From a bacterium (GTDB taxonomy: Bacteria > Armatimonadota > UBA5829), in assembly GCA_021371935.1 (NCBI GenBank), contig JAJFVF010000009.1, forward strand, positions 193,803-257,802: a stretch of 64,000 bases of DNA, read 5' to 3'. The notes under the pieces are model-generated. The model had not been told where the DNA came from and made no database searches. It saw nothing but the letters and a program-made list of their open reading frames with translations. This document shows positions 4,675 to 60,687 of this stretch, in pieces. The first letter of the stretch is position 1. Every line of letters begins with the position of its first letter. The translations under genes were made by a program, and so were the position numbers.

Positions 4675-6054
4675 ATGATTGCTGATGAACAACTAATAGC
4701 CAGAGCACGGCGAGCGGACAGATCGGCTTTTGATGAATTGGTTCGTCGCCATTTTTCAATGGTCAGGCGCATCGCTCAAGGTTTTGCATCGATTGAAGAG
4801 GATGTCAATGACCTGGTCCAGGAAACATTCATCACAGCATATGATCGACTTCACCAACTGGATTCACCAGAGAAGTTTGTCGGTTGGCTTGCTGCAATTG
4901 CGCGCAATGAATGCCGGATGTGGCTGAGAAGACGTGTTTCACAGCCAATCATACTGGGGCTTGGTGAAGGAGATGAGGCAAACCATCCATATACGTCGGC
5001 TGCGGCCAGGCAGTCGCGTGAACTGATGCGGCGAAATGCAATCCGGGAGGCCATATTCGATGCCCTTGCGGTTCTCAATGATCAGCAGCAAAGCGTAGTC
5101 AGAATGCATTACCTCGAGGGATATGACTATCGCGAGACTGCCGAACTGTTGAGTGTTCCTATATCCGTGGTGCGGGGCCGGTTGGACCGCGCCAGAAATA
5201 CTCTGAGAAAGGAACTCAAGGATATGATGGTTTCAGCCAACTCATGGAAACTGCAAAAGAAAGACATGGATACGATACGGCTTGCGGCGTCGTTTGTTCG
5301 TTTGGATCCGCCAAGTCCGATAAGCGCATTTTATTTTACGGGTGAAGGTAGCATTGTCTGCACTGACGGCTGCAGACTGCTGCACTATGGTTCTTCATCT
5401 ATCGATATGACGCCAAATGTGCTGATGAATGCCGATCTGGCAAGAACACTTCGAGACAAGTATGCTGACGTGAATAAAGGCACGCTTTCATTTGGGGATG
5501 GTAAGGCCGGACTTCGGCTGTCCGATGGTGATGTGATAGAGACGCAATTACTTGACGGAGAATTTCCAAACTGGCGTCTCATAATTCCTCCAGAATGGCA
5601 ACTGAGGATTCGCGCAAAGTCAGGGCACTGGCTCCAAGCGCTCGATCTGCTGAAGAAACAAAGAGATGGTGGTCTTATCGAGACGGATCCGGCATGGCCA
5701 AGCAGGCTGCTGATGGTGTTGTGTCCAGAGGACAGGAGGATCGTTTTACGACAGGGACAGGATCCGGTAGATTCCCAAAGCCTCGCAAGAGAGATAAGCG
5801 TATGGTTTCCGGCGGATTATTCTGCAGGTGGACCGGATACGATAATCGCCTTCAATGCGGACTATTTGCAGGAGGCCATTGCAATTTTGGGACTTGAGAC
5901 TGAGCAGATTGTGGAGCTGTATATCAACCCACCCAATCCTATGCCCGGCCCAATATTGACGAAGCCTCTCGACTCAGAAGATGTATGGGTAATGACAATG
6001 CCTATGGCCGGGACAACTCATCGCTGTCCTGTGCCTGAGAAGACTGCAAGCTAG
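4675..6054 (+). CDS. ECF-type sigma factor fused to a DNA sliding-clamp-like C-terminal half
   Basis: 459 residues, more than twice an ordinary ECF sigma. Residues 5-90 are sigma region 2 (AFDELVRRHF, DLVQETFITAYDRL, GWLAAIARNECRMWLRRR). Residues 125-182 are region 4 (LNDQQQSVVRMHYLEGYDYRETA, then VVRGRLDRARNTLRKEL). From about residue 200 the sequence resembles beta-clamp (DnaN) domains 2 and 3. CTDGCRL (229-235) matches the clamp's ATDGHRL, LLDGEFPNWRLIIP (292-305) matches IDGxFPxYRxVIP, AFNADYLQEAIAIL (392-405) matches the FNxxYLxDAL strand-helix, and VWVMTMPM (437-444) matches the clamp's terminal YVVMPMR. Motif order and spacing follow DnaN. Clamp domain 1 is absent. No anti-sigma gene is adjacent. 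AGGAG precedes the ATG. The stop codon TAG coincides with the end of a dispersed repeat. The fused half may sense or bind DNA or replication partners; that is inference. Confidence 0.75.
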   Translation: MIADEQLIARARRADRSAFDELVRRHFSMVRRIAQGFASIEEDVNDLVQETFITAYDRLHQLDSPEKFVGWLAAIARNECRMWLRRRVSQPIILGLGEGDEANHPYTSAAARQSRELMRRNAIREAIFDALAVLNDQQQSVVRMHYLEGYDYRETAELLSVPISVVRGRLDRARNTLRKELKDMMVSANSWKLQKKDMDTIRLAASFVRLDPPSPISAFYFTGEGSIVCTDGCRLLHYGSSSIDMTPNVLMNADLARTLRDKYADVNKGTLSFGDGKAGLRLSDGDVIETQLLDGEFPNWRLIIPPEWQLRIRAKSGHWLQALDLLKKQRDGGLIETDPAWPSRLLMVLCPEDRRIVLRQGQDPVDSQSLAREISVWFPADYSAGGPDTIIAFNADYLQEAIAILGLETEQIVELYINPPNPMPGPILTKPLDSEDVWVMTMPMAGTTHRCPVPEKTAS

Positions 6055-6118
6055 TCCGGATTATGCGCTTACCGCATAATTCGAGTCTCCAAGAACATTA
6101 TTCACGTTTCTCGTGATA
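6053..6118 (+). repeat. Dispersed double-hairpin element, copy 1
   Basis: First of seven related intergenic elements. Hairpin A is GGATTATGCG (6058-6067) with CGCATAATTC (6073-6082). Hairpin B is degenerate here: ATTATTCACG pairs only partly with CGTGATAGG, so this copy looks decayed. The upstream gene's stop lies in CTAG at the element's left edge. Confidence 0.75.
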
Positions 6119-6135
6119 GGTATGCTGAAGTAAAA

Positions 6136-8511: not shown

Positions 8512-9483
8512 ATGAAGCGCGCGGCTATAGCCTTCCTGACAATATATATGATTTTGGGCATGTGTGCAGCGGCTGATTCCGCTGTGGCTAAAGTGATATT
8601 GCAGCCCGAGTCACAGGTGCAGCCCGCACGTTCGGTCAAGATCGGGGACATTGCGCGCATAGAGGCTCCGCAAAAACTTGCGAAGCGCATAGGCGAGATA
8701 GTCGTGGCTACAGGTCCTTTGCCGGGCAAGAGCAAGAGTATCGATGCGAAGTATATAAAGCTGAGACTCAAGTCGGCTAACCTGAAGAGTGAGGTTGATC
8801 TGGTCGGTCCAGATACTGTTGATATCGTCGGCAAATGCGTCAGGATCAGCTCTGAGGATCTAGCCGAGCAGGCGAAAGCATATGTTATGGAGCGGCTCTG
8901 CACGGATGATATTACATACGATGTCATCGTGGAGCGCGCACCGAGGCAGATCGTGATCGCCCAGGCTGAGAATGTCGAGGTCAGGCCGAGGTTGATGAGC
9001 AGCAGTCTTCGACCGGGAGCAAACACGGTTGTGCTCGAAATCATGTCAAATGGCAAGACTGCAGCCACCACAAGCGTTGCGCTTACGGTGAAGGCCGTTG
9101 CCGAGGTGCTGATAGCGACAAAGTTGATAAGTCAGGGTGAGGCGCTCATGCCATCAAATACATCCTGGGAGAAGAGAGACATAACAACAGTTCGGGATGC
9201 AGTCATACGTGACGGCGATCATGAAAGCAAGGAATGGATCGCCCGGCGCACCATTCAACTCGGCTGCGTCATTACATCGCAGTCGATCGAGCTTCCGCCG
9301 GATGTGAAGCGGGGCGATACTGTGAACCTGACCGTGAAATGCGGCAATGTGATGCTTCACACTACCGCACAGGTCAAAGAAGACGGCAGGAAGGGCGACA
9401 CCATACGGGTAATGTCGGCTGTCTCGCAGGGCGAGGTTCGGGCGCAGGTTGTGGAGCCGGGTCTGGTGGAGATAGTCAGATAG
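8512..9483 (+). CDS. flgA: Flagellar P-ring assembly chaperone FlgA
   Basis: 323 residues. A signal peptide (MKRAAIAFLTIYMILGMCAA, cut near ADSA) directs it to the periplasm. The C-terminal two thirds match the FlgA/SAF fold: a LISQGEALMPSNTSWEKRDI segment, the IARRTIQLGCVITSQSIE segment (as in FlgA's A(R)R.I..G..L....v) and a final RGDTVNLTVKCGNVMLHTTAQV...GDTIRVMS. FlgA helps FlgI polymerise into the P ring. Its position between flgG and flgH/flgI fits. It is longer than the enterobacterial protein (about 220), the extra length lying in the N-terminal domain. The stop TAG is also the terminal triplet of a reverse-oriented repeat. Confidence 0.9.
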   Translation: MKRAAIAFLTIYMILGMCAAADSAVAKVILQPESQVQPARSVKIGDIARIEAPQKLAKRIGEIVVATGPLPGKSKSIDAKYIKLRLKSANLKSEVDLVGPDTVDIVGKCVRISSEDLAEQAKAYVMERLCTDDITYDVIVERAPRQIVIAQAENVEVRPRLMSSSLRPGANTVVLEIMSNGKTAATTSVALTVKAVAEVLIATKLISQGEALMPSNTSWEKRDITTVRDAVIRDGDHESKEWIARRTIQLGCVITSQSIELPPDVKRGDTVNLTVKCGNVMLHTTAQVKEDGRKGDTIRVMSAVSQGEVRAQVVEPGLVEIVR

Positions 9484-9556
9484 TCTGCATTATTCACGAG
9501 GGGCGTGAATAATGCTCGTGGAGCCCCGGATTTATGCAGAAAGCGCATAATCCGGG
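9484..9556 (-). repeat. Dispersed double-hairpin element, copy 2 (reverse orientation, inside the flagellar operon)
   Basis: The only copy in reverse orientation. GCATTATTCACG (9487-9498) pairs with CGTGAATAATGC (9504-9515) perfectly around a 5-base loop. CCCGGATTTATGC (9525-9537) pairs with GCATAATCCGGG (9545-9556) with one bulge. It fills the whole flgA-flgH gap. Confidence 0.85.
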
Positions 9557-9570
9557 AAAGAGAGGTTATT

Positions 9571-12434: not shown

Positions 12435-13814
12435 ATGGCTAGCACTTTTTTCGGTATCAGCGTAGCTCAATCAGGCCTGACTGCGCAAAAACGCGCGATG
12501 GAGGTCTTGTCGTATAACATCGCCAATGCAAACGACCCTACCTATAAACGTCAAAAGGTCGTTATGGTGGAAGGCCAGGTTCTGGCGACATCTCAGGAGG
12601 CCTCTTCCGTCGGCAGTTCCGGGATCGGAAGCGGCACACAGACCGGCGATGTCGAACGCGTTGTGGATGCGCTGGTCGAAAACCGACTCAGAGAAACAAC
12701 CACAAACAGCGCGGAATGGGACTATATGGCGAGCACTTTGAGTGGGTTGGAGTCGATAATGAACGAGCCAAGCGACTCCTCCCTGGAGACCGATCTCGAC
12801 ACGTTTTGGAATTCCTGGTCTACTGTCGCCAACAGCGCCGACGATACTTCCGTCAGGAGCGCACTGCTTGAAGATGCGACATCGTTGTGTGAAAGGATTC
12901 AGTACGTATACGGTCAGATGTCCGATATGGTCGACGACTTGAACCTGGAGGCGGAGGACATAGTCGATCAGATCAATCTGATGGCGAAGGAGATCGGAGC
13001 GCTGAACAACCAGATCGGCGCCATGTCATCCAATAATGAGCCGGTCAATGACCTTTTGAATACTCGTGACGCGCTGGTAAGCGAGTTGGCCGGATACGTA
13101 GATGTCACTGTCAGCGGCGAAGGCAGCGGAGACCTTGTGATATCAATCGCCGGCAGAGTGCTTGTGCAGGGTAGTGAAGTCAACACGCTTACCACCGTGA
13201 CCGGGTCGAATGGGGAATCGAGCATCGTTTGGGAAGACGGACTTGATCCGGTGGCAGTAACGGGTGGTGAACTTAAGGCCGTTACAGACTTGCGAGACAC
13301 TGTTATTCCTGGGTATATGTCGCAGTTGGATGACATAGCAGCCGAACTGGTTTCATCGGTCAATGCGCTGCATCAGACAGGACTCACTCTGGATGGCAGC
13401 GCAGGGGGAGATTTCTTTAAGGCCGGCACGACGGCGGCAAATATATGTCTTGACGAGAGTATTGTAGGCAAGCCGGATCTCATTGCAGCCAGTTCCAGCA
13501 CAAATTTCGGTAAAAGCAATGGTAACATCGCGCAGGCAATAGCTGATCTTAAGGATGCTGAAGGTACTTCGATCAATGAGATGTATGAAACGTTGGTCGG
13601 AAATATCGGCAGCGCATCGGCGGCAGCCCAGACTCAATCGGAAGCATACGCTTTGTCACTCGAACAGCTTACAACACAACAGCAGTCTGTATCGGGTGTT
13701 TCGCTTGATGAGGAGCTTACGAACATGATCAAGTTCCAGCAGGCATACAATGCCGCTTCCAGAGTGCTTACGGTTATGAATGATATGCTTGACGTGCTGA
13801 TGCAGACCGGCTAA
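12435..13814 (+). CDS. flgK: Flagellar hook-associated protein 1 FlgK
   Basis: 459 residues. The N-terminus (FFGISVAQSGLTAQKRAMEV, then YNIANANDPTYKRQ) carries the rod/hook/HAP helix. The middle contains LESIMNEPSDSSLETDLDTFWNSW, which is diagnostic of FlgK. The C-terminus ends LDEELTNMIKFQQAYNAASRVLTV followed by MLDVLMQTG, the expected terminal helix. FlgK forms the first hook-filament junction ring. It is somewhat shorter than the Salmonella protein (about 550) because the variable middle domain is reduced. Its TAA stop sits at the left edge of a repeat element. Confidence 0.95.
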   Translation: MASTFFGISVAQSGLTAQKRAMEVLSYNIANANDPTYKRQKVVMVEGQVLATSQEASSVGSSGIGSGTQTGDVERVVDALVENRLRETTTNSAEWDYMASTLSGLESIMNEPSDSSLETDLDTFWNSWSTVANSADDTSVRSALLEDATSLCERIQYVYGQMSDMVDDLNLEAEDIVDQINLMAKEIGALNNQIGAMSSNNEPVNDLLNTRDALVSELAGYVDVTVSGEGSGDLVISIAGRVLVQGSEVNTLTTVTGSNGESSIVWEDGLDPVAVTGGELKAVTDLRDTVIPGYMSQLDDIAAELVSSVNALHQTGLTLDGSAGGDFFKAGTTAANICLDESIVGKPDLIAASSSTNFGKSNGNIAQAIADLKDAEGTSINEMYETLVGNIGSASAAAQTQSEAYALSLEQLTTQQQSVSGVSLDEELTNMIKFQQAYNAASRVLTVMNDMLDVLMQTG

Positions 13815-13890
13815 CCCGGATTATGCGCTTACCGCATAATCCGGCTCTCTGAGAGCATTATTCATTTTTCTCGTGAATAATGCGCGCTAG
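13815..13890 (+). repeat. Dispersed double-hairpin element, copy 3 (between flgK and flgL)
   Basis: Starts directly after the flgK stop. CCGGATTATGCG pairs with CGCATAATCCGG (13816-13844) around CTTAC. A second hairpin pairs GCATTATTCA with TGAATAATGC (13855-13883). The right end is GCGCGCTAG. The element separates two genes that are normally co-transcribed. Confidence 0.85.
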
Positions 13891-36175: not shown

Positions 36176-36767
36176 ACGTCTGATATGATTGGCGCACTAG
36201 TTCATTGTAGACGCAAGTGGGTGTGATAGTAAACGTGAAAATGACGGATTTCTAAGTAATATACTACCTTGAACTTGTATTAGCCCTGATTATGCGCTTG
36301 CCGCATAATCAGGGTCTGCGAGAGCATTATTCATGTTGCTCGTGAATAATTTGGGCTAGAGATATGAAGAACAAGGCGTGCGATTTACTTAGTGTAAATT
36401 GCTTAGGTGCGATAAGATGTCTGTGCACGATTTGTGCTATCTATTTGTTCAGATAGTTCTACGTAGCCCTTTTGTATATGATATCCAGTCCGCAACTTGA
36501 TATTCAAGAAAAGCCGAGTCCTCTTCATTAAGCAGACTGAACGTTGCAGTAATTCTATTTATACGTTCTGCCTGAACATCCTGCTGTGGCTCCGCTAGTA
36601 ATTAATACCGATGGTTTGGTGCTTAATGTTTTTGACAAGCTGACAATCGCGTCAAGGGCCTTTCAATTTGACAAAAAGTGCCGCTTTTGATACTTTTGAT
36701 GAGCCTTGCAATCGCGGGCGAATTCCCCGAAGACGTAATTACATTCGCTACCTATAGGGGGCCGACT
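36176..36767 (+). other. 592-base gene-free region between divergent transcripts
   Basis: Apart from repeat copy 4 (36281-36359) I see no gene, tRNA or clear promoter. The frame of the following AAA ATPase is open from 36678, but coding similarity starts only at 36768. Confidence 0.5.
36281..36359 (+). repeat. Dispersed double-hairpin element, copy 4
   Basis: Begins TAGCCCTGATTATGCG and ends TTGGGCTAG. Hairpin A: CCCTGATTATGCG (36284-36296) with CGCATAATCAGGG (36302-36314). Hairpin B: ATTATTCA with TGAATAAT (36327-36350). Terminal TAGCCC/GGGCTA pair as an outer inverted repeat. Unlike most copies, it is not next to a stop codon. Confidence 0.85.
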
Positions 36768-45886: not shown

Positions 45887-46000
45887 TAAGTGTTGAGAAT
45901 GTGTGGATGTTACCCAAATAGGCTGATGTAGTCAATGCCGGACGATCCCTTGCTGATATGCGGCAGGGGTTCGTTAGTTCTGTGCACCATTGGGACAGTT

Positions 46001-46079
46001 TAGCCCGGATTATGCGCTTCCTGTATAATCCTGAGGCTCTGAGAGCATTCTTCACGCTCCCCGTGAAGAATGCGGGCTA
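46001..46079 (+). repeat. Dispersed double-hairpin element, copy 5
   Basis: TAGCCCGGATTATGCG at the left and GCGGGCTA at the right form matching terminal inverted repeats. Hairpin A (GGATTATGCG/TGTATAATCC) has lost symmetry in the tip. Hairpin B, GCATTCTTCACG/CGTGAAGAATGC (46047-46074), carries compensatory changes T-to-C and A-to-G, preserving the stem. It splits the exopolysaccharide operon after wzc. Confidence 0.85.
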
Positions 46080-46237
46080 CTGTATCCATTGGTTGATATC
46101 CTGCAAGTCAGGCAAATGATTCATTTGTGGAATATATCTATGAGGATGTCTATTTCCATCAAGCAGTTTGGGAATCATCGGTCATTATTATTGGTATTAG
46201 AAGAGTTGGAAGTAAAGCGGATTACGGAGGACTGGGA

Positions 46238-56010: not shown

Positions 56011-56087
56011 CTAACCCGGATTATGCGTTTCCAGCATAATTTGGTGCTCCGAGAGCATTATTCACGAGAAGCGTGAATAATGCTGAC
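56011..56087 (+). repeat. Dispersed double-hairpin element, copy 6
   Basis: CTAACCCGGATTATGCG at the left. Hairpin A is imperfect (ATTATGCG with AGCATAAT). Hairpin B is a perfect 12-base stem: GCATTATTCACG/CGTGAATAATGC (56055-56083). It lies between converging serC and the PEP-CTERM gene, beside serC's terminator. Confidence 0.85.
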
Positions 56088-56102
56088 AAAACTGATTTAT
56101 GC

Positions 56103-56953: not shown

Positions 56954-57276
56954 CGCATGAGGCAAAATTCAGGTAATATTGCCTGGTCAAATGGCGCAAT
57001 ATAGCGCTTAGTGGGCTGAATTATGAAAGTATGTGTGCAAAGATGCTGATAAAAACATGGTCTAATATCGCGCAGAGAGGGTAATTATGTCCAAAGCGGG
57101 TGTTGCGCACAGCATAAAGCATGCGTGGATTGGAGGTGATTCAAACAAATGCAGCCCGCCATTACAAAGCAGGATCATGGTCCAAATCGCCGACTGCATG
57201 CAGGCAGGTAACATGGCGACTTTTTGCGTCCGGTCGAGTGAATGGGTCCATGCCTGACGTTGGAACGGAGGAAAAG

Positions 57277-59214
57277 ATGAGCAAGACAATATATCTGACG
57301 GCGGTGATAATACTGCTTTGCAGCGGTTCAGCTGTCGCTCAGCAGGCATTTACCGACGTGCCCACCGATCACTGGGCGTATGATGCGATAAGGACGTTGG
57401 TTGATGATGGTATAATCCTTGGCTATCCAAATGGGACCTTTGGCGGCAAGCGGGCAGTCACTCGTTATGAGTTTGCGGTTGCCATAGCGCGGTTGATTCA
57501 GTATATCCCGCAGTTGGTTCCGAGTGAGAGAGGCGGGGTAATCACACAGGAAGAGCTTGACGATGCCCTTAAGGATTATGCCAAAAAGAGCGAGATCATG
57601 CCGCCTCCAAGTCTGGCCAATCTTGCAACCAAGCAAGACCTGGAGTGCGTGCGCAAACTTGTTGACGAGTTTCGCGGTGAGCTTGAGTCATTGGGTGTGG
57701 ATGTAGACACTTTAAAGACCCAGGTGGCCGATCTCACCTGCAGAGTGGCTGTGCTTGAGGCTGAGGTCCGACGGGTGAAATTTACAGGTGATGCCAATGT
57801 ATTTGCAATTGCCAACGATCACAGAAGCGGCATTGTGCCGGCAGTGGACCTGGATAACCGAACGATCCCGTTTACAGCGACGCTTGGCCGCACGATAGGA
57901 GTGGTGCGTGATTTTGATCTTAATGTCGTAGGACGCATCAGTTGCAGTACCACTGCAAACGCGACTATCGACTATGGCAACTATCTCAACTATCTGGTTG
58001 CAGTGGACGACTATGTTGATGGTGTTCGCCAGACTTCAAGAAACGATACCCGGACGGTTGGGGACCTGACTCACCAGTTTGTTGACGCTTTCTTTCCCTA
58101 CTATGCGTATATTGACGCCGGGATCTGCAGCGGCAACGTGAAAGCTGGTCGTTTCCCAATCCAGTTCACGCCGTATACTCTGAAGAAGATCGATGTTGAC
58201 TCGTATACGACAATCCTCAAGACCGATGACGGCTACTACCCTATGGATGGTATCAGCCTGATGAACAATTTCGGTGGGGTGGACATTACTCTGTTTGCCG
58301 CGAAAAACGATCTTAACGACTACCTGGTCAATGGACTGACCGGTCAGCCGAGAAACAGTATCGGCACATTCAACCAGCTTGGCGGCAACGCAGTCGGCGG
58401 ACTGACTCAACTGGTTTCGCAGACGGCTGGTGGTAGAGCTGTGGTCGGCATACCATGGAGTGGGAAAGCCGGTTTTACGTTCTATCAATCATGGTCCGAG
58501 GACGAGTTCAATATACAAGCCAATTACGATCAGGCCAGGGTCTATGGCACTGACCTGTCCGTGCCTGTCGGCATGTTCAACTTTGCAGGAAGCTGGACTC
58601 AAAGCGATGCGCTGGTCCGTGAGGGTGCAGTTGGCGTCACGGATGTCAATGACGACGCCATAGCCTGGGACGGCAGATTTGGCGCGATGGTAGGCAAGCT
58701 GGGTGTGGGTGCGGGCTATAAGTCTATTGGCCGCAACTTCACTGCAGCGGGTTTTTGGGACAAGATAGGCCATTGGGCAAACCCGGTAAATATTAAGGGT
58801 CCCTATGCTGATCTTGTGTACCCGTTGATGGGCAACCTGAACTTCGTGGCTAATGGCGAATACCTGACTGTGAAGGACCCGTCGTCTGTTACCGGTAATT
58901 CCGCTTTGACACAAAACGACAATATCATTAAAGCCGAAGGCGGCCTGCAATGGGGTCTGTCTAAGGCCAATTCGGTTGCTCTGGGCTATCAGTGGGTCAG
59001 ATTTCGCCCGGATTCTGCCGCGCTCAGTGATGCCACCGAGACCTATCTGACAATAGGATGGGCTTATAAGTTGAATCCGAATACGGCGTTCAACGTTGGT
59101 TATCAATACATCAATTATGACGGCGGCGGCAATCCTGCCGGGACGACCTTTGCGTATGGACCGGATACATATCGCGCCGGAGAGGGAGTTGTCCAGTTCG
59201 GTGTGACGTTCTAG
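57277..59214 (+). CDS. SLH-domain outer-membrane porin
   Basis: 645 residues. Signal peptide (IYLTAVIILLCSGSAVA). One SLH domain: AFTDVPTDHWAYDAIRTLVD, then GIILGYPNGTFGGKRAVTRYEF, which binds secondary cell-wall polymer. A coiled coil (LATKQDLECVRKLVDEFRGE, ESLGVDVDTLKTQVADLTCR) spans the periplasm. The rest is a beta-barrel with alternating aromatic residues, ending VQFGVTF with the terminal Phe of outer-membrane proteins. This SLH-coiled-coil-barrel layout is known in Deinococcus, cyanobacteria, Negativicutes and Armatimonadota. The ATG at 57277 follows GGAGG by 7 bases. The stop TAG falls inside the CTAG that starts repeat copy 7. Confidence 0.9.
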   Translation: MSKTIYLTAVIILLCSGSAVAQQAFTDVPTDHWAYDAIRTLVDDGIILGYPNGTFGGKRAVTRYEFAVAIARLIQYIPQLVPSERGGVITQEELDDALKDYAKKSEIMPPPSLANLATKQDLECVRKLVDEFRGELESLGVDVDTLKTQVADLTCRVAVLEAEVRRVKFTGDANVFAIANDHRSGIVPAVDLDNRTIPFTATLGRTIGVVRDFDLNVVGRISCSTTANATIDYGNYLNYLVAVDDYVDGVRQTSRNDTRTVGDLTHQFVDAFFPYYAYIDAGICSGNVKAGRFPIQFTPYTLKKIDVDSYTTILKTDDGYYPMDGISLMNNFGGVDITLFAAKNDLNDYLVNGLTGQPRNSIGTFNQLGGNAVGGLTQLVSQTAGGRAVVGIPWSGKAGFTFYQSWSEDEFNIQANYDQARVYGTDLSVPVGMFNFAGSWTQSDALVREGAVGVTDVNDDAIAWDGRFGAMVGKLGVGAGYKSIGRNFTAAGFWDKIGHWANPVNIKGPYADLVYPLMGNLNFVANGEYLTVKDPSSVTGNSALTQNDNIIKAEGGLQWGLSKANSVALGYQWVRFRPDSAALSDATETYLTIGWAYKLNPNTAFNVGYQYINYDGGGNPAGTTFAYGPDTYRAGEGVVQFGVTF

Positions 59215-59291
59215 CCCTAATTATGCTCGTCGAGCATAATTAGGGTCCGGGCCGCGCATCATTCACGTCTCTCGTGAATAATGCGCGCTAG
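59211..59291 (+). repeat. Dispersed double-hairpin element, copy 7
   Basis: Both ends are CTAG: CTAGCCCTAATTATGC... and ...GCGCGCTAG. Hairpin A pairs CCCTAATTATGCTCG with CGAGCATAATTAGGG (59215-59246), the longest of all copies. Hairpin B pairs ATTCACG with CGTGAAT (59270-59289 region). The first CTAG contains the porin's stop codon. Confidence 0.88.
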
Positions 59292-59321
59292 ATTCCGGTG
59301 TTTATGTCTGTAAATCGCAGA

Positions 59322-59363
59322 AAGCGAGAAACCATCGCAGAGACGGTTTCTCGCTTCTTTATT
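59322..59363 (+). terminator. Intrinsic terminator after the SLH porin
   Basis: AAGCGAGAAACC (59322-59333) pairs perfectly with GGTTTCTCGCTT (59345-59356), followed by CTTTATT. Confidence 0.8.
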
Positions 59364-59541
59364 GGTAGGCTGCTTTGCATCTTCTCAAACTTCTTCTCTA
59401 GTGCTCAAGATGCATTGGCCACACTCGGAAAAGGGTGATCTATTCGGATTCTTCTGTAAACCGGCTTATCGCTTTCCATTTCCTCGAAATCGAAGATGCT
59501 TAAAAGTACACATCATAAGAATGCACTTTTTGTGCCGACAA

Positions 59542-60687
59542 CTATCTCTTCCTGCAGGCAAACCCGACAAATCCTAATCCTCCCACTATTAGTGCGAGGA
59601 ATGAGCCTGGCTCGGGCACCACTGGCGCAAGCGGTAAATTTACAGTGGCTATGAACGCCTCGTAACCAGACGGACTCTTACCACGTCCCACAATCGTGGC
59701 GATGTTATTATTAACAGCTACATCCTGAGCATCAAATAATCTCCAGCCTTCGGGTATCGCAGAGCCGAGCAGCGAGGATAGACTCACCATACCGGTAATT
59801 TGTGTCCACAGAAAGGCTTCAACGCCCAGCATCGAACTACTTTCTCCGACTATTACAGATCCATCTGACGAAATACCATGGGCAGTGCTACAGAATTCGC
59901 CTCCAGAGAGAACGCCCAGGCCGACCATACCATCATTTGCAGTCCAACGGAAAGCTTCAGTGCCGAGTGCGGAACTACTTCTGCCAACTATGACTGACCC
60001 ATCTCCGGATGCAGCATAGGCCACGCTTTTTACGTCTCCGCCAGAGAGATCACCTAGACTAACCATACCTCCACTCTCAGTCCAGCGGAATGCTTCATTT
60101 CCGCTATCTCCGACGATGACAGATCCGTCTGCAGATACGCCGAATGCCTGGCTGTAGTCACTCAGAATGCCTAAGCCTACCATGCCTTCGCTCATAGTCC
60201 AACGGAAAGCTTCGCAACCTAGCGAACTGCTGCTGAATCCAACTACGACAGATCCATCCCCAGACACGCCAAAGGCCTCGCTCCAGATGCTGTTACCAGG
60301 AAGATCACCCAAGCCGACCATGCCATCACTTGCAGTCCAGCGGAAAGCTTCGGGGCCGGTCGACGAGCCGCTGAATCCAACTACGACAGATCCGTCTGCT
60401 GAAGCGCCCTTAGCATTGGTGGCGCTGTTTCCACCAGGAAGATCTCCTAGACTCACCATTCCACTACTTGCAGTCCAGCGAAAAGCTTCTTCGCAGTATA
60501 AAGAGGAAGCTGAGTAACCATATCCAACCACGGTAGACCCATCGGCAGATATGCCATAGGCACCACTCTCGTATCTGCCTTCAGGAAGATCGCCCAGCCC
60601 TTGGAATGTCGCCGCGCCGGCAACACTGCTGAACACAACTGCCGCTGCTGTGGTAAAAACAACTGCCAATAACTTGCTGTATTTCAT
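59542..60687 (-). CDS. HAF-repeat PEP-CTERM surface protein
   Basis: 381 residues. Signal peptide (VVFTTAAAVVFSSVAGA) and about seven imperfect 45-residue repeats with the pattern EAFRWTxxxGMVxLGxL, SxAxGxSxDGSVVVG, as in HAF extracellular repeat proteins. The C-terminal PEP-CTERM tail is VVPEPGSFLALIVGGLGFVGF, then CRKR. It is probably exported and anchored or released at the cell surface; similar repeats are linked to adhesion. AAGGAGA lies 11 bases before the ATG at 60687. The repeat count should be prone to change by recombination. Confidence 0.85.
   Translation of the reverse strand: MKYSKLLAVVFTTAAAVVFSSVAGAATFQGLGDLPEGRYESGAYGISADGSTVVGYGYSASSLYCEEAFRWTASSGMVSLGDLPGGNSATNAKGASADGSVVVGFSGSSTGPEAFRWTASDGMVGLGDLPGNSIWSEAFGVSGDGSVVVGFSSSSLGCEAFRWTMSEGMVGLGILSDYSQAFGVSADGSVIVGDSGNEAFRWTESGGMVSLGDLSGGDVKSVAYAASGDGSVIVGRSSSALGTEAFRWTANDGMVGLGVLSGGEFCSTAHGISSDGSVIVGESSSMLGVEAFLWTQITGMVSLSSLLGSAIPEGWRLFDAQDVAVNNNIATIVGRGKSPSGYEAFIATVNLPLAPVVPEPGSFLALIVGGLGFVGFACRKR

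Follow-up and report, generated by a model that had tools for sequence, protein, structure and literature searches.

A short two-hairpin repeat that duplicates YTAR target sites and often lies exactly on stop codons, probably a non-autonomous MITE

Among the known short repeats of bacteria, REP and REPIN elements are built of paired hairpins, at whose foot a tetranucleotide stands, and are associated with RAYT transposases, and HUH transposition makes no target duplication. IS5 is an insertion sequence of about 1.2 kb which encodes its own transposase. In the sections of two sources that were available (PMC5493358; PMC10359306), IS5 is described as duplicating a YTAR target, CTAG being the commonest form followed by CTAA and TTAG, and CTAG is called under-represented in bacterial genomes. 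The Correia/NEMIS, RUP and ERIC families are presented, in the portion of the source at hand (PMC2229807), as short, mostly non-coding elements with hairpins, terminal inverted repeats, many copies and target duplication.

The window, that is the whole 64-kb stretch of DNA that was analysed, contains seven copies of a repeat of about 74 bp composed of two hairpins, and the Rfam search of the window gave no match. No description of this element, or of MITEs at bacterial convergent stops, was found in the open-licence PMC literature. In four of the seven copies the neighbouring gene has its stop codon in the edge tetranucleotide, as the first-pass annotation had noticed, and all four positions that it gave hold. 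The names porin, flgA and flgK are labels taken from that annotation; FlgK and porin queries retrieve orthologues in relatives. The copies, in positions of the window, are these:

59211..59214, plus strand: left 4-bp duplication CTAG of the porin copy; TAG 59212-59214 is the stop of the porin ORF 57121-59214
59215..59287, plus strand: core of the porin copy, with hairpins 59215-59245 and about 59253-59287 (model match G000:C9:253012-253094)
59288..59291, plus strand: right duplication CTAG of the porin copy
6051..6128, plus strand: copy with left CTAG 6051-6054, in which TAG 6052-6054 is the stop of ORF 4675-6054; its right half and right duplication are decayed
9480..9560, minus strand: flgA copy with ATAG 9480-9483, in which TAG 9481-9483 is the stop of the flgA ORF 8512-9483; the other tetranucleotide, AAAG 9557-9560, is identical to ATAG at three of four positions
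13811..13890, plus strand: flgK copy with CTAA 13811-13814 and CTAG 13887-13890; TAA 13812-13814 is the stop of the flgK ORF 12435-13814
36280..36359, plus strand: nested intergenic copy with TTAG 36280-36283 and CTAG 36356-36359, inside a second repeat of about 96 bp
46000..46080, plus strand: intergenic copy with TTAG 46000-46003 and CTAC 46077-46080
56011..56090, plus strand: intergenic copy with CTAA 56011-56014 and CAAA 56087-56090

The copies at 36280, 46000 and 56011 are placed between genes and none of them is on a stop.

A covariance model of 82 positions, duplications included, was built from the seven window copies and gave 152 matches in the 3.54-Mb genome to which the window belongs (G000). 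Weaker matches were excluded, so that the analysis of stops uses the 131 copies of at least 50 bits and that of the duplications the 122 copies of at least 60 bits. The element has the MITE traits of being short, non-coding and multi-copy, and it also has terminal inverted repeats, although imperfect ones: the left end reads CCCGGATTATGCG and the right end, on the other strand, CCCGCATTATTCACG, each being part of a hairpin. The porin copy folds with -44.8 kcal/mol (z -8.95 against shuffles), and the flgK and flgA copies have z values of -5.98 and -6.12, whereas the decayed copy at 6051 folds weakly (z -2.34). Among the 91 full-length copies that are distinct, strong covariation is seen at one variable stem pair (paired 0.91 versus 0.58) and the remaining stem pairs are mostly near-invariant.

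The element was found in three of the 61 genomes searched, namely G000, a relative of the same genus (G004, 4 matches) and a member of another family in the same class (G022, 75 scored); the close relatives recognized by FlgK are Armatimonadetes assemblies. Such a patchy occurrence fits mobility. G022 gave 79 matches, of which 63 reach at least 60 bits, and removal of two duplicates from overlapping loci leaves 61 copies. Duplication statistics in that genome refer to 59 of these; the two further copies are neither on a stop nor flanked by matching tetranucleotides.

The tetranucleotides on the two sides of the core are identical in 67 of the 122 copies, against 22.1 +- 3.8 in shuffles (maximum 37 in 10,000). 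This excess is confined to four positions (0-3), mainly the first and the last. Where the left tetranucleotide is non-palindromic (81 copies), the right side repeats it in 41 and carries its reverse complement in 1. Base pairing between the two ends was considered as the cause of the covariation and rejected, complement pairing not being above shuffles (0.56 vs 0.62; 0.63 vs 0.63). YTAR is matched by 93/122 left and 87/122 right tetranucleotides. The flanks are non-identical in 55 of the 122 copies, 29 of which differ at a single position, and we read these differences as decay. Three of the four G004 copies carry the same tetranucleotide on both sides (TTAA in L109, TTTA in L111 and TTCA in L113). 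In G022 the flanks are mostly CTAG and identity is modestly over shuffles (19/59 vs 14.0 +- 2.3). The flanking tetranucleotides are a 4-bp target-site duplication with the consensus YTAR, often CTAG. Its length is fixed at exactly four positions, and empty sites support it.

One empty site concerns C6:203393-203474 of G000, where the element separates two convergent genes and each of them has a CTAG of its own for its stop. In G004 the orthologues of this pair (77% and 83% identity) converge on a single CTAG (L251:1492-1495) which has no element and contains the overlapping stops of both genes. When the G000 flanks are joined at one CTAG they align to G004 gap-free across the site. Since the single CTAG of G004 contains both stops, the stop pre-dates the insertion at C6. 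Comparison with orthologous gene ends, which the first-pass annotation had proposed as a check, thus yields a single CTAG in G004 and two in G000, and together with the covariation it bears out the suggested selection of CTAG/TAG-like targets. We also observed in G000 a second copy between convergent genes, at C4:64072-64153 (L021), whose duplicated CTAGs contain both stops.

Empty sites exist as well within G000. BLAST for empty sites in the DNA examined gave 37 spanning rows, several of which are the locus of the query itself, and only the set in the second repeat was used. Four copies interrupt this repeat at ...TGTA-TTA(G/C)-[element]-C(T/C)AG-AGATATG..., and nine other aligned copies of it are unbroken there, with TTAG in 4, TCAG in 3 and another sequence in 2.

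The second repeat family, with ends CTAAGTAAATTACG...GTAAATTGCTTAG, occurs at 18 places in the G000 DNA examined. With its C-TA...TA-G edges this family would be compatible with duplication of a TA within CTAG. Very short derivatives of the element were also seen, consisting of a single hairpin or of only about 15 bp between two YTAR-like tetranucleotides. Moreover, at four loci of G000 (L108, L069, L088, L050) and one of G004 (L116) the right edge runs into a common GCGTAAAAACGAACT... sequence, and some of the left flanks are alike too, which suggests a larger repeated unit containing the element.

Window about 36254-36410; also L014, L105, L058, L001, L045, L060, L052 and L012: second repeat of about 96 bp
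L014 (C12:60905), L130 (C2:327950-327978), L061 (C2:298634) and L071 (C13:176989): very short derivatives

The placement on stops is not limited to the window and is more frequent than chance. Genes were called with a home-made program, which was trained on long ORFs and misses small genes; a called stop falls exactly in the edge tetranucleotide of 28 of the 131 copies in G000, corresponding to 30 gene ends. All 30 are at offset 3, with none at offsets 0-2 or 4-21. None of the 131 copies lies within a called gene. In G022, 19 of the 61 copies are on stops and again none is within a called gene. The copies are therefore not distributed independently of stops, which the first-pass annotation had named as an outcome that would count against it, and its idea of insertion without disruption of genes holds, the protein being unchanged at a stop-YTAR.

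We consider it very probable (roughly 0.9) that the repeat is a non-autonomous MITE whose YTAR target is duplicated on insertion and whose copies come to be placed on stops by tolerated landing. A DDE-type transposase, which is probably the mover, would act in trans and insert the core of about 74 bp into a 4-bp YTAR target, often CTAG; the target would be copied in the process, leaving one tetranucleotide on each side of the core. Where the target at a gene end is Y followed by TAG or TAA, the near duplicate would keep the original stop in frame and, the protein being unaltered, the insertion would be tolerated, while YTAR insertions within genes would break them and be lost. As CTAGs are few and stops make up a notable part of those in which an insertion does no harm, many of the surviving copies would be found on stops. 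In the palindromic CTAG the stops of two convergent genes may even overlap, and insertion there would give one copy to each gene. The pattern on stops would thus arise because harmless YTAR sites include stop codons.

The supply of such sites can be counted. The window contains 34 CTAGs, where dinucleotide shuffles give 168 +- 11, and the DNA examined contains 313 against a second-order expectation of 537. In that DNA, 22 of the 128 non-disruptive CTAGs are stops, and among sites outside genes or on stops the share of stops is 17% for CTAG, 9% for CTAA/TTAG and 7% for TTAA. A random draw of non-disruptive YTAR sites predicts 12.9 of 110 copies on stops and 26 are observed (P 3e-4), an excess which could mean that gene ends are actively targeted, for instance through transcription termination or a stop-proximal DNA structure, on top of the YTAR preference. 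CTAG copies also lie on stops more often than background CTAGs (15/40 against 22/128, Fisher P 0.015), and in G022 the 19/59 compares with 13.0 if all targets were CTAG (P 0.046). Nevertheless, with background rates from the window only, the expectation rises to 20.5 (P 0.10), and small genes missed by the caller, together with other repeats, have probably raised the background intergenic counts. The same bias would moreover arise if insertions in promoters were selected against: copies are fewer than background sites in divergent gaps (27/125 vs 207/645) and more numerous in convergent gaps (27/125 vs 90/645), which is what a loss of such insertions should produce. We regard active targeting as rather unlikely. 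The targeting of gene ends that was initially suggested is called for in part only, since 12.9 or 20.5 copies on stops, depending on the background, would already be expected from non-disruptive YTAR sites hit at random. YTAR targeting and the loss of gene-breaking insertions can explain most or all of the coincidence with stops; a residual excess of 1.3-2-fold over site supply is unproven, and selection has presumably had a role in the placement of copies. A bolder proposal is that a scarce-tetranucleotide code steers the element to gene ends and separates convergent overlapping stops, with homing to stops if the preference were to exceed the supply; this we hold to be speculative and on balance doubtful.

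Another possibility is that the repeat is a REP/REPIN-type element moved by Y1 (RAYT-like) HUH transposases; these recognise the tetranucleotide at a hairpin foot and would insert the repeat beside it without duplication. A tetranucleotide is indeed found at the hairpin foot, and G000 contains three Y1_Tnp genes, two of them over the Pfam cut-off:

L001 1348-1872, minus strand: Y1_Tnp (RAYT-like) gene
L002 1459-1998, plus strand: Y1_Tnp (RAYT-like) gene
L003 1375-1830, minus strand: Y1_Tnp (RAYT-like) gene

However, the direct-repeat covariation and the single tetranucleotide in empty sites speak for duplication, and no model match lies within about 1.5 kb of any of the three genes. This reading, which is very improbable, was dropped when the target duplication appeared.

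For the non-autonomous MITE, the transposase families PF13546, PF01609 and PF13751 were searched, a set to which the IS5-related PF13586, PF13340 and PF13359 do not belong. PF13546 was found in none of the three genomes with the element, whose assemblies are fragmented, and PF13751 in neither G000 nor G022; PF01609 gave one gene in G000, without matching ends, and none in G022. A search of the three genomes with the terminal-repeat pattern returned only short element-like variants and no parent element.

It had also been proposed that the ends of the element supply the stop, in which case genes would be truncated or extended at the landing site. The YTAR edges do contain TAG or TAA, and FlgK is about one residue shorter than in the two same-genus relatives G004 and G001. 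Against this, relatives that lack the element have the same stop in the porin, flgA and C6 genes. In G004 (TTC-TAG), G001, G002, G005, G006, G016 and G018, porin orthologues without the element finish in ...F-stop at an unchanged position, a comparison that leaves out loci L176 and L180, in which the contigs end early. The end position of flgA does not differ in any of the six loci read: five of them align as far as the final residue, and in the sixth, L139, the alignment breaks off two residues early, with two residues following before the stop codon. For the ORF that ends at 6054 the loci tried yielded no orthologue. Moreover, only 6 called gene ends lie deeper within an element among the 131 copies of G000. 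The comparisons show that the stop codons pre-existed the element in the cases tested, namely those of porin, of flgA and of the convergent pair at C6. Longer orthologues, which the first-pass annotation had expected to see if it was wrong, are thus absent for porin and flgA and present, by about one residue, for flgK. A stop supplied by the element is likewise very improbable.

Very improbable, too, is the reading of the repeat as a terminator or as some other 3'-UTR structure under selection which arose where genes end. It would account for strong hairpins there but not for target duplication, nested copies and occurrence in 3 of 61 genomes, nor for the lack of any terminator-like site in the search of 58900-59600 or for the location of the flgA copy between two same-strand called genes 87 bases apart.

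A 4-bp target code together with duplication would have allowed the MITE to spread to more than 100 places with no called gene broken, and at one locus the separation of two overlapping stop codons by an insertion is directly visible. The analysis corrects two natural misreadings, the REP element and the element-supplied stop, and offers a countable system for telling target preference from selection.

When compared with known systems, the element resembles REP/REPIN in its paired hairpins with a foot tetranucleotide and in the Y1_Tnp genes of the same genome; it differs in its clear target duplication and in the absence of copies beside those genes. With IS5 it shares the 4-bp YTAR duplication with frequent CTAG, which is characteristic of IS5 (PMC5493358; PMC10359306), but no IS5-type gene with the ends of the element was found in G000, G004 or G022, and the terminal repeats of IS5, as we take them to be, do not resemble the element ends CCCGNATTATNC. 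All the listed MITE traits are common to the element and to Correia/NEMIS, RUP and ERIC, as these are described in the part of the source consulted (PMC2229807). According to the same part (PMC2229807), those families mostly have TA at their termini, whereas the element has a 4-bp YTAR duplication, and it is set apart also by two separate hairpins and by its frequent exact placement on stops. The description that suits the element best is that of a MITE whose target sites are IS5-like.
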